Shown: positions 5,727 through 64,000 of the stretch, piece by piece
Layout: the number at the start of each line of letters is the position of its first letter
How positions within the stretch are numbered: position 1 is the stretch's first letter
Source of the DNA: a virus
Virus record (IMG/VR): IMGVR_UViG_3300021138_000014
Location: 18,375 to 82,374 of that record
Strand: one strand, 5' to 3'
DNA: 64,000 nt
The notes under the pieces: model-generated
Told to the model about the DNA's origin: nothing
Seen by the model: only the letters and a program-made list of their open reading frames with translations
The model's database searches: none
Program-made: the position numbers and the translations under genes

Positions 5727-6789
5727 CGGTGGTGGCTTCAACAATGTACTTTGAGCCAGCCTTGATGGTTTCTAGGACGTCCTTCTCCAGACGCTCTCGG
5801 AGGTCGATCTCCTCCTTGATAGAGCTAACCATAGCATCTCCTCCTTGCCATTTTCTATCGCCGTAACTATAGAAGGCACCAGCACGAGTAATAACCTTGT
5901 TAAGGACCCCAAGTGAAGCAATCTGCTTAGCAAAGTCGTATTCACCGGGAGGAACTGATCCCCCGTCAGCAAAATAAAAGTCTAGGTATGCCACTTGCGA
6001 TGGTGGGGCAACCTTGTTCTTGAGGGTACGAACCTTGATAGTCTGACCGATACGGCGCTTGCTATCTCCTGAACCAACCTCTAACCACTCATCACGCTTG
6101 ATCTCAAGACGAGTAAAGAAGGCATAGTCTTTGCCTAATCCGCCGGGGGTGGTTCGTGGATCTCCGTACATGACGCCGATCTTTGAGCGCCACTGATTGA
6201 TGATCAAACCAATAAAAGGTCGTTCCTGTTCAGTAAGTGAACGCTTGCTAGCGGGACCTACCTTACGGAAAAACTTATTAGTTAGGAGCGCTCCCTTTCC
6301 GACGGTGAACTCATCCATGTCTTTCTCATCTTCTGCACCTGGAACCAGAGCAGGCAAGGAATCAACAACAATACAATCGATAGACTTACTTTCAGCAATT
6401 TTGATAACTGTTTCAAATGCTTCCTCCATAATATTCGTGGATACTACGTAAACGCGTGATAGATCCACTCCGCATAATTCTGCATAAGAAGGAACCCATT
6501 GTTCTGCAGCTACCCAAACTGCTGTAAAATCTGGATCTTTTTCTTGATTGGCTGCAATAGTTTTTAGGGCAATAGCGGTTTTACCATTACTGGCTTCTCC
6601 TACTAACTCTGCCCATTGGTTGGTCGGCCATCCGCCACCCAAAATTACATCAAGTGATAATGAACCTGTTGTCATGTGAGAAATTAGATCTTCTCTAATC
6701 TCTGATCCTAGGACAATAGCCCCTGGATTCTTCTTATTAACTAATGCGATGGTTTTTAAAAGTTCTTTGTTCTTCTCCGCTGTTGTCAT
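5716..6789 (-). CDS. recA: RecA-like recombinase
   Basis: 357 residues. Walker A is GEASNGKT (64-71), the ATP-activating Glu is E96 in VWVAAEQ, Walker B lies in CIVVDSLPAL, and a loop with TTPGGLGKDYAFFTRLEIKR matches the L2/monomer-contact region. RecA forms filaments on ssDNA and drives strand exchange. It heads the overlapping block recA - nuclease - whiB - Cas4-like - UvsY-like - RuvC-like, a layout that supports recombination-dependent replication as in T4. Start ATG overlaps the stop of the upstream zinc-ribbon gene by one base. Walker A deviates from the host consensus (GPESSGKT), as is usual for phage RecAs. Confidence 0.93.
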   Translation of the reverse strand: MTTAEKNKELLKTIALVNKKNPGAIVLGSEIREDLISHMTTGSLSLDVILGGGWPTNQWAELVGEASNGKTAIALKTIAANQEKDPDFTAVWVAAEQWVPSYAELCGVDLSRVYVVSTNIMEEAFETVIKIAESKSIDCIVVDSLPALVPGAEDEKDMDEFTVGKGALLTNKFFRKVGPASKRSLTEQERPFIGLIINQWRSKIGVMYGDPRTTPGGLGKDYAFFTRLEIKRDEWLEVGSGDSKRRIGQTIKVRTLKNKVAPPSQVAYLDFYFADGGSVPPGEYDFAKQIASLGVLNKVITRAGAFYSYGDRKWQGGDAMVSSIKEEIDLRERLEKDVLETIKAGSKYIVEATTDEE

Positions 6790-7172
6790 TATTCGAGTTT
6801 ACCAATAATCGTCGTAGGATTCCAACCGCCAGTTGGCACTTGAAAGGCTTTCTGTGTAGGACCTGCGGATGGGATATTTACTCCACCTGCACCACTACCT
6901 GATTGAACTTTAGGGTACCCACAGTCATAGCACCGCCATGCATCTTGTGGACCGTTCTGCGTGGCAATTGAACCCACTTTCATGTAATTTCCACTACGGC
7001 ATTCTGGGCAAGCGCCTGAACTAGAAACACTTCCCATTGGACGACCAGTAGGTTGTTGTTGTGGTTGTTGATATGTATCCATAGGTCGTTGCGAGGGAGC
7101 CAACGGCAGATCGGATGACCGTGTTGTGGGCGTAGCATTACCACCCGCATGTTTAGACCAGAAGTTACTCAT
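6789..7172 (-). CDS. Zinc-ribbon protein with Pro/Gln-rich linker
   Basis: 127 residues. A disordered N-terminus rich in Pro, Gln and Ser (YQQPQQQPTGRPMG) leads to a zinc ribbon with C55-x2-C58 and C81-x2-C84, then a Gly/Pro-rich tail. It sits between recA and polA in the replication block, overlapping the next upstream gene by 8 bases. This suggests a replication accessory or scaffold that binds DNA or the polymerase, but no family is recognised. Confidence 0.6.
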   Translation of the reverse strand: MSNFWSKHAGGNATPTTRSSDLPLAPSQRPMDTYQQPQQQPTGRPMGSVSSSGACPECRSGNYMKVGSIATQNGPQDAWRCYDCGYPKVQSGSGAGGVNIPSAGPTQKAFQVPTGGWNPTTIIGKLE

Positions 7173-7611
7173 CTCTTATTATTCCTCCTATAGCGTTTAT
7201 ATCTATTAAGCCCAATTCTACTCCTGAGGACAGGGTAGAAATAATCCCAGACATAGAAATCATCTTGTAAATATCTTCTATCTTATGGTATTCAGAGTGA
7301 AGGTCTTCAGAATCTAAATCTATTCCTGCCTCACGCATTCTTTCAAATTGAACGGCGGCCATAGCTTGAGAATTAATATCGGCCATTGCCTCGATAAAGG
7401 GAAGTAACCCCATGATCTCCGATAGTCGATCTTCGCTACCCTGTAGTTCGGTTTGCTTACCCTCTTCACTAACCGGAAGCATTCCTACGGCTTTGGCAAC
7501 ATAGTTTGGATCTTCTATAGAAGCGTCATAAAAATACCAGCGAAGTAAGGTGGCAACAGACACCTCAATAATTTGAGGTTCAAATTTAGGTTGCCAAAAT
7601 TTCCAACTCAT
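7165..7611 (-). CDS. Hypothetical protein
   Basis: 148 residues, acidic and largely helical, starting MSWKFWQPKFEPQ. It overlaps polA by 4 bases and the zinc-ribbon gene by 8, so all three are translationally coupled. There is no catalytic motif, no membrane segment and no cysteine pattern. A polymerase-associated accessory role is only suggested by position. Confidence 0.55.
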   Translation of the reverse strand: MSWKFWQPKFEPQIIEVSVATLLRWYFYDASIEDPNYVAKAVGMLPVSEEGKQTELQGSEDRLSEIMGLLPFIEAMADINSQAMAAVQFERMREAGIDLDSEDLHSEYHKIEDIYKMISMSGIISTLSSGVELGLIDINAIGGIIRDE

Positions 7612-60828: not shown

Positions 60829-60851
60829 TTCAAAACAAATTGCTACTCCGT

Positions 60852-60882
60852 TTGACACAGCGCGTAATGTTTATGCTACTGT
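60852..60882 (+). promoter_or_regulatory. Candidate promoter of the transglycosylase gene
   Basis: TTGACA (60852-60857) is a perfect -35 box. Possible -10 boxes are TATGCT (60872-60877, spacer short at 14) and TACTGT (60877-60882, spacer long at 19). It drives the plus-strand gene at 60939. The spacing is non-ideal, so the -10 assignment is uncertain. Confidence 0.5.
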
Positions 60883-60938
60883 TGAGTACGACAGAGGCGC
60901 TAGCAATAGCGCCTTCGCCAATTGAGAGGAGCAATAAA

Positions 60939-61472
60939 ATGCTCAATATCAGAATAAATGTAATGATCGATGTAAAGAAATGGGCAGCCACCATCGCCTG
61001 TTTTGGAATAGCAGTTAGCCAGTTTTTTGTGCCAGCGTCAGCGCTCCCAGCGCCTAGCAAGCCAGAGAAGGCAGTGACAGTGTCCTTGGCTTACTTGACA
61101 GTACACACAACTAAATCAGAAGCACAAACGGCTTTAAAAAGCCCTTACGTCAAATACTTTGACGCCCAGACCATTGCGTTCTTAACAACGTACGCAAATG
61201 GTGAATCTATGGCAGAGTGGAAATGCCTAAACTATTTATGGAATGGAGAAAGTCACTTCAATCCAAAGGCGCTCAATATGAGCTCGCATGCCTTTGGGAT
61301 CGCTCAGTTCTTACCAACTACTTGGGGTAACTATAAGGTTGCAAAAACAGCCGTAGCCCAACTGCAAATTCAATACGGACTGCGCTACATACAGGTTCGC
61401 TACGGAAACTCTAAGGATCCAGCGGGCGCTTGTAATGCGGCGGCATTTTGGAAAAAGCATAGTTGGTATTAA
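60939..61472 (+). CDS. Secreted lytic transglycosylase-like protein
   Basis: 177 residues from ATG 60939, chosen because GAGAGGAG precedes it; longer upstream frame is not needed. A signal peptide with a hydrophobic core (WAATIACFGIAVSQFFVPAS) ends near ASA-LP. The SLT/goose-lysozyme-like domain has E104 in WNGESHFNP, then HAFGIAQFLPTTWGNY and a terminal CNAAAFWKKHSWY. C96 and C165 may form a disulfide. It cuts glycan strands outside the membrane. A second plus-strand cell-wall gene, it may act in lysis or in entry-exclusion. Confidence 0.83.
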   Translation: MLNIRINVMIDVKKWAATIACFGIAVSQFFVPASALPAPSKPEKAVTVSLAYLTVHTTKSEAQTALKSPYVKYFDAQTIAFLTTYANGESMAEWKCLNYLWNGESHFNPKALNMSSHAFGIAQFLPTTWGNYKVAKTAVAQLQIQYGLRYIQVRYGNSKDPAGACNAAAFWKKHSWY

Positions 61473-61524: not shown

Positions 61525-62157
61525 TTAGGACTCCTGAACGCCTGTTCCTGCAGCCTCACCAAATGCTGTGCGGTAGACAACAAAGTTAACTGCTGTTCCC
61601 TTTGTGATACCTGTAGCGCCTGCAGCGACTGACTGGCTGTATACAGTTCCGTTATTGACCTGTGTAGCACCAGTTGCTGTGAAGGTGACGGTTCCAGTGT
61701 TAAGATCTGCAACACCAAGAACACGATCAGCTTCAACCTGTGTAAGACCAACAATGCTTGGAACGGTTGCGGTAGAGACGCTTGTAGCGAATCCTGCGCC
61801 TGAAGCGTTCTGTGTAGCATTCTGTGTCCAGTATGAACCAGCGCCTTGATATGAAGTTGTAACTGTATTTGCTGGGAAACCAGACCATGAGTTAAGAACA
61901 TTAACAATGTTGTCCGCTGGGACTGTGTAGGTGTTTGTACCTACGTTAACGGTTGGCTGAGTTTCTGTGGAAAGGATGCTTGTGTAGTCTGTGGTTGTTG
62001 ACCAAGCATGGTCACCAGAACCGCCACCATTAGCGTTATAAGAAATAGATGAACCGGAACGGTCATCGTTTGTCTGTGAAGGCATATTGCCCCAGACGAA
62101 ATCTACTGCTACGTTGCCAGCAGGTGCCTGCTTGTAGCCTGAATCACGTGTTGTCAT
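61525..62157 (-). CDS. PASTA-domain virion or secreted protein
   Basis: 210 residues. The C-terminal 70 residues (VPSIVGLTQVEADRVLGVAD then QSVAAGATGITKGTAVNF) form a PASTA domain, known to bind peptidoglycan or beta-lactam-like ligands. The N-terminal part is Gly/Ser/Asn/Thr-rich and disordered to beta. No signal peptide is evident. It may be a virion protein anchoring to the cell wall at infection, or a wall-associated regulator. It is alone on the minus strand between the transglycosylase and the monooxygenase genes. Confidence 0.7.
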   Translation of the reverse strand: MTTRDSGYKQAPAGNVAVDFVWGNMPSQTNDDRSGSSISYNANGGGSGDHAWSTTTDYTSILSTETQPTVNVGTNTYTVPADNIVNVLNSWSGFPANTVTTSYQGAGSYWTQNATQNASGAGFATSVSTATVPSIVGLTQVEADRVLGVADLNTGTVTFTATGATQVNNGTVYSQSVAAGATGITKGTAVNFVVYRTAFGEAAGTGVQES

Positions 62158-62253: not shown

Positions 62254-63009
62254 TTAGGAGAAGTCCTGCAATAGACGAACCTCTTCCAATACCCGATGCA
62301 CGTTATCCTCATCCTTAGAATAAGTATCAGAAATCAACCAGTCCGAGACGTTTTCATATTGCAAAAGGTACTCAGCCACGTCCGCATAAGATCCGTAAAT
62401 ACAGTTTGCTTTAGCGCGTTCATTTTTTAACGCTGCGTAGGTGTATTCCGCTTCTTTGTAGGTTTCGCGGGCAATGATAAAAGCGCGGATCATAATCCTT
62501 TGCTTATTCTTCATGATTGCTTCATTTAGATCGCTGAGCATAGATATGCCCAGATCACCGTAGTTATTCACGTTATCCATGGTTGTAGGCGAAGCCCCAC
62601 TAAAAGCAATAGGAACGCTATCCCCGAGATGCCATTTTAACTTTTCGGCAAACTCTGTTGCCATGGCACGTCGCTCCTCTAAGGTGGCGTTAACGCCGAA
62701 GATCACTTGATCTTCGTCATACGTTCCGTTAACGATATTAAGAATAAGGCGACCGGGAGCAATATTTGTAAACGACCGACAGAGCATCGCGCAATAGGCT
62801 GGAGTCATAAAAAAAGGGCGTAAGGCAACCATGAACTTTAGGCGGGGGGAGTAAGTGGTTAAGTGCATGGCTCGAACAAATGGGTCTCCAGAGGAGTAGT
62901 GCGTGGGAACAAGGAGGGAGGTATACCCGTAAATATCTAGGTTATAGACAAGATCCTGCATGTATGCGTCTGAGTCATTACCCGCCGCTATCCAGTGAAA
63001 CTGCGGCAT
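62254..63009 (-). CDS. LLM/SsuD-like flavin monooxygenase, paralogue 1
   Basis: 251 residues. The segment KFMVALRPFFMTPAYCAMLC then TNIAPGRLILNIVNG matches the SsuD/bacterial-luciferase family (LLM), a TIM barrel using reduced FMN and O2, best known for alkanesulfonate cleavage. Starts MPQFHWIAAGND. The protein is about 100 residues shorter than typical SsuD, missing the C-terminal part, so activity or substrate may differ. Overlaps the paralogue by 1 base. Rare in phages as far as I know; metabolic role (sulfur scavenging) is inferred. Confidence 0.78.
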   Translation of the reverse strand: MPQFHWIAAGNDSDAYMQDLVYNLDIYGYTSLLVPTHYSSGDPFVRAMHLTTYSPRLKFMVALRPFFMTPAYCAMLCRSFTNIAPGRLILNIVNGTYDEDQVIFGVNATLEERRAMATEFAEKLKWHLGDSVPIAFSGASPTTMDNVNNYGDLGISMLSDLNEAIMKNKQRIMIRAFIIARETYKEAEYTYAALKNERAKANCIYGSYADVAEYLLQYENVSDWLISDTYSKDEDNVHRVLEEVRLLQDFS

Positions 63010-63776
63010 TACCGTTTAGTTCTAGTTGTTACGAGGTCGTGGATAGCCTCTATGCTCGCCTCTCCAACAAGTGGTGCCGAGATAGCCCAGTCAGTAACGA
63101 AGTCTTCATAGGATTCCATTTGAGCGATAACCTCATCCTTGGTTCCGCATAGGGTGCTTAATTTCATATTACCCATTGGGAAATCATCCCAAATCTTTTG
63201 AGCTTCCTCAGAGGTTTCTGTAATAAGCAGGAATGCGCGCACCATAGTTTTCTTTGCCTTCAGCGCTGGGACGTTTTTATGCACAATAATGGCTTGGTTT
63301 AGGTGATTAAACAGCCCGTCGCCATGACCATCTGTAACCGCGTCTACTCCTTGAAAAGAACTTCCTTTAACCCACAGTCTAGGAAGATCATCCCCATATA
63401 CCTCACGTAGGTTCTTAGCGAAGTCTTTCATCAACTGTCGCTGAACAGTTAATTCATGATGAACCTTGAATACTGCTTTTTCAGGTTGATCTAACTCCCC
63501 AGTAATAAGGTTAAGGGCAAAGCGATCTTTAAATTCTTCAACAAATGGCTTTAAGATCATAGCCCCATACCCCACGTTAACCATCTCTGGGCGTAAAGCC
63601 ACGGTTACTCCAAGGCGATTGTGAGTCTTTAGTAAGTGGTAAGCCTTACCAAAGTTATCTCCGTGTCCATAATCAAAGGTAAGAAAGATACTGTCATACC
63701 CCGAGTCTTCAAGAGTAGTAACGAAAGATTCGTCCCGGACGTTGTATTCTCGATCCATCCAATGAAACTTAGTCAA
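63009..63776 (-). CDS. LLM/SsuD-like flavin monooxygenase, paralogue 2
   Basis: 255 residues. TTG at 63776 is chosen as start because it gives (M)TKFHWMDREYN, aligned with MPQFHWIAAGN of the paralogue, and TTGACTAA overlaps the DUF2061 stop. VTVALRPEMVNVGYGAMILK then FKDRFALNLITGELDQPEKA is the LLM core. GGGGAAG is a workable binding site. The pair likely arose by duplication and may form a heterodimer, as bacterial luciferase does. Short like its paralogue. Confidence 0.75.
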   Translation of the reverse strand: MTKFHWMDREYNVRDESFVTTLEDSGYDSIFLTFDYGHGDNFGKAYHLLKTHNRLGVTVALRPEMVNVGYGAMILKPFVEEFKDRFALNLITGELDQPEKAVFKVHHELTVQRQLMKDFAKNLREVYGDDLPRLWVKGSSFQGVDAVTDGHGDGLFNHLNQAIIVHKNVPALKAKKTMVRAFLLITETSEEAQKIWDDFPMGNMKLSTLCGTKDEVIAQMESYEDFVTDWAISAPLVGEASIEAIHDLVTTRTKR

Positions 63777-63981
63777 TGTCCTGTCTTCCCCATTTAATTT
63801 TGTTCCATGCACGCTCGTGGTAGTAGTACAGAACAATCTTAACAACTAGCTCAATACCAGAAGCAGCCAAAGCCAACTTACCGTTATGGGTTAACCCATA
63901 GATAATCAGAAACGAAATGAGATTCCCAAAGAATCTCCAACTTACTGACTTTGCTAATGAACGTGCGTGTGAAACCCACAT
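63769..63981 (-). CDS. DUF2061 membrane protein
   Basis: 70 residues from ATG 63981 (MWVSHARSLAKSVSWR), with GGAAAGAG upstream; an ATG at 63999 at the window edge is an alternative. The pattern ARSLAKSVSWRFFGNLISF, GIELVVKIVLYYYHERAWNK is diagnostic of DUF2061, with two membrane segments. DUF2061 is often found beside or fused with sulfate-assimilation genes (adenylylsulfate kinase), which fits with sulfonate-type monooxygenases downstream. Overlaps the LLM gene by 8 bases. Biochemical function is not known. Confidence 0.83.
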   Translation of the reverse strand: MWVSHARSLAKSVSWRFFGNLISFLIIYGLTHNGKLALAASGIELVVKIVLYYYHERAWNKIKWGRQDID

Positions 63982-64000
63982 AATTGGCTCTCTTTCCATA

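Follow-up and report, generated by a model that had tools for sequence, protein, structure and literature searches.

Lid-less SsuD-like flavin proteins and a possible sulfate-activation and tailoring island in phages

The virus examined here, a freshwater phage, encodes two compact SsuD-like proteins of the luciferase-like monooxygenase (LLM) superfamily, LLM1 and LLM2, which belong to a widespread phage family of putative minimal flavin monooxygenases, annotated only automatically in the databases that we searched. Their genes lie behind genes related to sulfate activation, and the reading that we favor, with slightly less than even confidence, is that the locus constitutes an accessory island for sulfate activation and tailoring, in which the LLM proteins would act as FMNH2-dependent oxygenases. 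The fold, the flavin-pocket residues, the gene neighborhoods, and the absence of reductive sulfur genes were computed directly, and all the activities discussed below are predictions.

The window, i.e., the whole 64,000-nucleotide stretch of DNA that was analyzed, corresponds to bases 18,375–82,374 of an 82,374-bp virus record (IMGVR_UViG_3300021138_000014). It is the final 64 kb of that record, so the contig stops at the start of the DUF2061 gene. The first-pass annotation had described three overlapping genes at this end, encoding a DUF2061 membrane protein and two short LLM proteins, and the minus-strand coordinates bear this out (Table 1). The end of the DUF2061 gene and the start of the LLM1 gene overlap by 8 bp, and LLM1 and LLM2 are joined by a stop/start overlap, TAATG. 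DUF2061 was assigned with PF09834 (E = 4.5e-16; 59.4 bits, cut-off 23.1). The first-pass annotation had also pointed to the gene upstream of base 64000, and this gene was recovered from another contig, IMGVR_UViG_3300000176_000143, which overlaps the window at 99.9% identity and reaches 1,120 bp beyond base 64000. Upstream of DUF2061, this contig carries an APS-kinase-like fusion gene, designated APSK-NT, and then a partial cupin/JmjC_2 gene. On the other side of the LLM genes, the large terminase gene follows the PASTA-domain and SLT transglycosylase genes.

Table 1. Features at the end of the window and on the contig that extends it (positions in the window)
Feature	Position	Strand	Description	Basis
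APSK-NT	directly upstream of DUF2061, on extending contig		250 aa	APS-kinase-like domain and CTP_transf_like (NMNAT-like) nucleotidyltransferase domain
DUF2061	63999-63769	minus	small membrane protein, 76 aa	PF09834
LLM1	63776-63009	minus	~255 aa, TTG start, divergent mini-SsuD-like paralogue	family HMM, LLM2 paralogue
LLM2	63009-62254	minus	251 aa, putative mini-SsuD-like flavin monooxygenase	PF00296, AlphaFold2
PASTA-domain protein	61525-62157	minus	directly downstream of LLM2	
SLT transglycosylase	60840-61472	plus	opposite strand from LLM genes	

A three-sequence LLM alignment retrieved 78 viral loci (a seven-sequence alignment proved too heterogeneous for this purpose), and an HMM found 120 LLM genes in the IMG/VR loci fetched. 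The adjacency of DUF2061 and LLM genes recurred in further phages, and APSK-NT and DUF2061 co-occurred in most of the viral loci retrieved with either gene. APSK-NT was present in 24 of the 37 dereplicated LLM-retrieved loci versus 2 of the 25 terminase-related loci (p = 6e-6), in a comparison in which the terminase control set has a different phage backbone and the rows are not independent. This association has to be weighed against the possibility that the LLM and sulfate-activation genes are unrelated cargo of one hypervariable accessory island, which we consider unlikely. The island does vary among the terminase relatives, with APSK-NT found in 3 of 26 and LLM in the phage's own virus only, and three LLM phage records of 103–113 kb were without APSK-NT, so LLM does not strictly require APSK-NT. 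Direct adjacency of LLM to APSK-NT or DUF2061 was weakly above chance when all the dereplicated LLMs were considered (11 of 46, with 6.8 expected; p = 0.057), and was rejected as strong evidence. However, chance co-location fits poorly with the co-occurrence itself, with the touching or overlapping pairs of LLM and APSK or DUF2061 genes in five loci (L009, L100, L107, L115, and L132), and with the gene order APSK-NT, DUF2061, LLM, which the window phage shares with L100 and with the divergent L134, whose LLM is the sister of LLM2 (support 99/91). In L009, L107, L115, and L132, it is the end of the LLM gene that meets the start of the APSK or DUF2061 gene.

In terms of protein family, LLM2 lies above the curated cut-off of PF00296 (E = 5.4e-16; 59.3 bits, cut-off 27.9) and LLM1 lies under it (E = 0.0015; 18.4 bits), and both matched the 120-member phage HMM at E ≤ 1e-58 (E = 3.9e-60 for LLM1). 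They share 30% identity over 238 amino acids (E = 8e-31), consistent with their initial description as paralogues. The AlphaFold2 model of LLM2, predicted from a 46-sequence alignment (pLDDT 93.8, pTM 0.90), contains all eight strands of a complete TIM barrel and continues through strand 8 and the last helix, as expected from the SsuD-like fold first proposed. In Foldseek searches with this model, MsuD ranked first (7.8e-16), followed by SfnG and SsuD in the top group (TM-scores of 0.79–0.85 on the query), and sulfoquinovose monooxygenase, F420 enzymes, and RutA were found below the SsuD group. On the question of FMN versus F420, this places the proteins in the FMN-type SsuD clade; an F420-dependent enzyme was rejected because F420 proteins were matched only by fold and ranked below the FMN group. 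The luciferase alpha chain matched the phage LLM proteins weakly (E = 0.049). The family profile aligned with MsuD over positions 12–258 of 268 (2e-23), and the phage proteins show two long gaps in this alignment, which we assign to the MsuD insertions that form the beta-hairpin and the lid/sulfonate loop; they also have no counterpart of the SsuD/MsuD C-terminal tail. Because the barrel is complete and the profile match extends over positions 12–258, the missing residues are mostly internal, and the LLM2 model and profile alignment rule out a C-terminal truncation, contrary to the first impression that both proteins lack about 100 C-terminal residues.

The residues that line the flavin pocket are retained throughout the family. 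In MsuD, A75, R77, and N104 form part of the isoalloxazine/dioxygen pocket (PMC8234197), and equivalents of these residues and of G108 were present in all 46 dereplicated phage LLMs, including LLM1 and LLM2, so the flavin-binding face, whose loss would have counted against the original proposal, is preserved in both. The equivalent of R126 was present in 44 of the 46. LLM1 has Q at this position, whereas LLM2 keeps the arginine. LLM1 also occupies a long branch (2.09) within the same clade as LLM2, and these signs of rapid evolution, together with the tandem, translationally overlapping arrangement of the two paralogues, are what would be expected of a LuxAB-like heterodimer in which catalysis falls to LLM2 and the divergent LLM1 has a regulatory or structural role. 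We judge such a heterodimer, which would be compatible with a tailoring island, to be improbable, given that LLM1 retains the isoalloxazine-pocket residues and that tandem pairs are the exception, found in the window phage, in L166/L168/L170, and in L098. Several other contigs encode two LLMs, usually of different clades and mostly kilobases apart, and many phages have one only.

The sulfonate site shows the opposite pattern. MsuD no longer releases sulfite when W195, R225, or R296 is replaced by alanine (PMC8234197). The equivalent of W195 was absent from all 46 phage LLMs, that of R225 was present in 7, LLM1 and LLM2 among them, and the R296 loop lies in a segment that the phage proteins lack, together with the lid. 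On sequence grounds, the phage LLM family thus appears to have kept the flavin face and mostly lost the sulfonate site. Judged by W195, R225, R296, and the lid, its members do not qualify as alkanesulfonate monooxygenases, and the LLMs of the window scored 70.8 and 13.1 bits against TIGR03565, the SsuD/MsuD equivalog, for which the cut-off is 518.2. Sulfur scavenging, in which the LLMs would be alkanesulfonate monooxygenases freeing sulfite for the phage or host sulfur supply, is therefore disfavored by the missing sulfonate site, and we regard it as quite improbable, even though SsuD, MsuD, and SfnG are the closest solved relatives, both LLMs of the window keep the R225 equivalent, and the genes for DUF2061 and APS kinase are sulfur-related. 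Furthermore, the common neighbors of the LLM loci included no flavin-reductase cluster, and no genes for reductive assimilation were detected nearby. The first-pass annotation had envisaged an auxiliary module for sulfur or FMN chemistry that releases sulfite from sulfonates; of this, phage-borne SsuD-clade LLMs with an FMN pocket and a DUF2061 partner from sulfate activation are supported, but sulfite release is not.

Outside these viral loci, full-length relatives of the phage LLMs were scarce. A pattern scan of a species-genome collection found none, which is a weak negative because few short patterns were used, and 297 genomes of one actinobacterial class yielded only partial matches of ≤75 bits in longer open frames, compared with 150–351 bits for full-length phage members; no full-length cellular counterpart was thus found in these limited scans. 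In BFVD, two such phage proteins carry automatically assigned names. In the cultured-phage collection, LLM1 had no homologue, and LLM2 had only partial matches. Nearly all of these were in records of "Acinetobacter phage MD-2021a" annotated as ssuD, with one other in Pseudomonas phage Y15. The MD-2021a records, such as CAKLQH020000009.1 and its sister records, exceed 100 kb and carry several ssuD genes; they appear to be bacterial contigs misfiled as phages, i.e., contamination, and were rejected as cultured-phage homologues. Searches of the open-access literature yielded no description of a comparable phage LLM family.

The APSK-NT proteins are well conserved, with a mean column identity of 78% across phages. 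The kinase domain matched the APS kinase profile (3.4e-17), and that of L003 scored 60.0 bits against PF01583 (cut-off 21.1). The homologue from L007 scored 62 bits against TIGR00455, below the apsK equivalog cut-off of 138.7. Beyond about residue 84, where the APS-kinase match ends, lies a shortened segment in which part of the lid is missing, and the second domain matched NMN adenylyltransferases (PDB 2qjt, 3.6e-5; NCBIfam, 2.2e-6). The second-domain match and the NADAR-domain gene adjoining the homologue in Stenotrophomonas phage Bhz60 could be taken to mean that APSK-NT is a NadR-like ribosylnicotinamide kinase and NMN adenylyltransferase that restores NAD+ for redox cofactors or anti-defense, but this is hardly probable, considering that Foldseek with the L007 model returned APS kinases at the top, that the APS-kinase motif residues are invariant in the phage proteins, and that APSK-NT is partnered with DUF2061 and sulfotransferases. 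Cultured-phage homologues (39–41% identity) are encoded by Bhz60 (L175:6989-7729) and by DLP_6 (L174:6001-6732), where genes for a phosphatase and an Fe(II) oxygenase lie nearby; Stenotrophomonas phage Suzuki is another cultured carrier of APSK-NT. In the L003 gene, the nucleotidyltransferase end (L003:850-1110) is rich in N calls, often located at the third position of codons; strain variation within the sample sequenced may be the cause.

Sulfotransferases are frequent neighbors of APSK-NT. They were detected in 68 of the 135 phage APSK-NT loci, a count biased upward because the sulfotransferase HMMs were built from APSK-retrieved loci, and 63 APSK genes had a sulfotransferase within 1.5 kb, 24 of them within 20 bp. 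One of the three sulfotransferase families lies above the Pfam cut-off (Sulfotransfer_2), and for the other two the evidence consists of motifs and weak Pfam matches. In the incomplete genome of the window phage, no sulfotransferase was found by HMM or motif. Homologues of CysD/H, CysN, sulfite reductase, and CysJ/K, searched for with HMMs built from bacterial DUF2061 loci, were found in none of the 135 phage loci. As the kinase lies beside sulfotransferases rather than sulfur-assimilation genes in many sister phages, the island looks built for the decoration of molecules rather than for sulfur nutrition. The slot behind DUF2061 is variable: both L012 and L007 have a sulfotransferase and 2OG oxygenases there, and L121 and its relatives have a flavin-dependent halogenase. 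A tryptophan-halogenase-family gene (PF04820, E = 1.3e-106) was located beside LLM, DUF2061, and APSK-NT in 21 freshwater-phage loci (e.g., L037:7105-8655 and L121:5881-7422). In other loci, a frame immediately upstream of APSK-NT, or in its vicinity, carries a sulfotransferase-like domain preceded by a repeated "MAHFAxxDENN" domain (L020:1012-1833, L025:6432-7271, and relatives).

In the sulfate-activation and tailoring island that we favor, APSK-NT would supply a nucleotide donor that carries a 3'-phosphate, most probably PAPS, with the kinase domain phosphorylating APS and the small nucleotidyltransferase domain possibly making it, and DUF2061 would serve this pathway at the membrane. To judge from the gene neighborhoods, a sulfotransferase would use the donor in the sister phages. 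LLM1 and LLM2 would oxidize an organic substrate as FMNH2-dependent monooxygenases, drawing reduced flavin from a flavin reductase of the host; candidates for this substrate are a virion or tail glycoprotein, a host surface glycan, and a small molecule. The LLMs would then be one of several exchangeable tailoring enzymes, together with 2OG-Fe(II) oxygenases, Asp/Asn hydroxylases, flavin-dependent halogenases, and sulfotransferases. A bolder and rather doubtful extension is that freshwater phages have their own complete route to activated sulfate, in which a miniature PAPS synthetase, an APS kinase fused to an ATP sulfurylase of the NMNAT fold, works with DUF2061 at the membrane. The donor would feed exchangeable enzymes (sulfotransferases, phage-specific lid-less SsuD-like oxygenases, halogenases, and 2OG oxygenases) that decorate the virion, the host surface, or a small molecule, and phage "cysC" would serve decoration instead of sulfur assimilation. 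If so, phages decorate something with sulfate and oxygen.

The record encodes a portal, tail sheath, baseplate, collagen-repeat protein, DNA polymerase A, RecA, and B12-dependent ribonucleotide reductase, and its structural genes, including the tail sheath and baseplate, indicate a contractile-tailed phage. Earlier in the same record, a C-5 cytosine methylase gene is split or frameshifted: its two halves (PF00145 positions 1–169 and 263–323) lie in overlapping frames (L005:5842-6567 and 6545-7285). WhiB is an actinophage marker (PMC10202952), and its occurrence in many LLM loci and several terminase relatives suggests that the hosts are probably Actinomycetota; the window record itself has a Gp88 protein and no WhiB match. 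In one order of small-genome Actinomycetota, a CysNC-sized frame with a full-length APS kinase domain was present in 25 of 61 genomes. Of these 25, 24 had a single PAPS_reduct-family match, of CysD size, so members of this order may make PAPS without reducing it.

In bacteria, DUF2061 is associated with sulfate activation, as stated in the first-pass annotation. Among 80 bacterial DUF2061 loci, CysD-like, CysN-like, and sulfite-reductase-like genes were found in 49, 48, and 33, respectively (cluster names assigned by reading the sequences), and DUF2061 and an APS kinase domain share one open frame in six loci (L180, L189, L205, L224, L242, and L252). In the open-access literature, searches on DUF2061 or on phage APS kinase with sulfotransferase returned nothing on the module's function. 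The bacterial operons with CysD and CysN or CysNC place DUF2061 beside an APS kinase domain, as the phages do, and in the actinobacterial locus L177 a sulfotransferase-like gene lies next to CysNC and DUF2061. The phage loci differ in having neither CysD, CysN, nor any reductive gene tested, and in having a shortened APS kinase fused to an NMNAT-like domain.

Among the LLM proteins, SsuD, MsuD, and SfnG (PF00296; PDB 1m41, 7jv3, and 8t0u) are group C two-component FMNH2-dependent monooxygenases that share the TIM barrel and the isoalloxazine pocket with the phage LLMs. Unlike them, the phage proteins are approximately 250–300 amino acids long and gapped at the beta-hairpin and lid/sulfonate-loop insertions, and unlike SsuD and MsuD they are without W195, the R296 loop, and the C-terminal tail, have R225 in few members, and fall far under the equivalog cut-offs. 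LuxAB are tandem paralogues of the LLM superfamily and LuxF is a compact member of it; the phage LLMs belong to the same superfamily and are likewise tandem, as in LuxAB, and compact, as in LuxF, yet they group with SsuD/MsuD. Published surveys assign phage cysC, reported for example from freshwater phages (PMC10914622) and in PMC9529941, to assimilatory sulfate reduction. These are likewise APS-kinase-like phage genes, and the reported cysC and APSK-NT are probably overlapping gene families. However, the neighbors of APSK-NT are DUF2061, sulfotransferases, LLMs, and oxygenases, without reductive genes, which suggests sulfation rather than assimilatory reduction and offers a testable alternative in which phage cysC serves sulfation and other tailoring chemistry.
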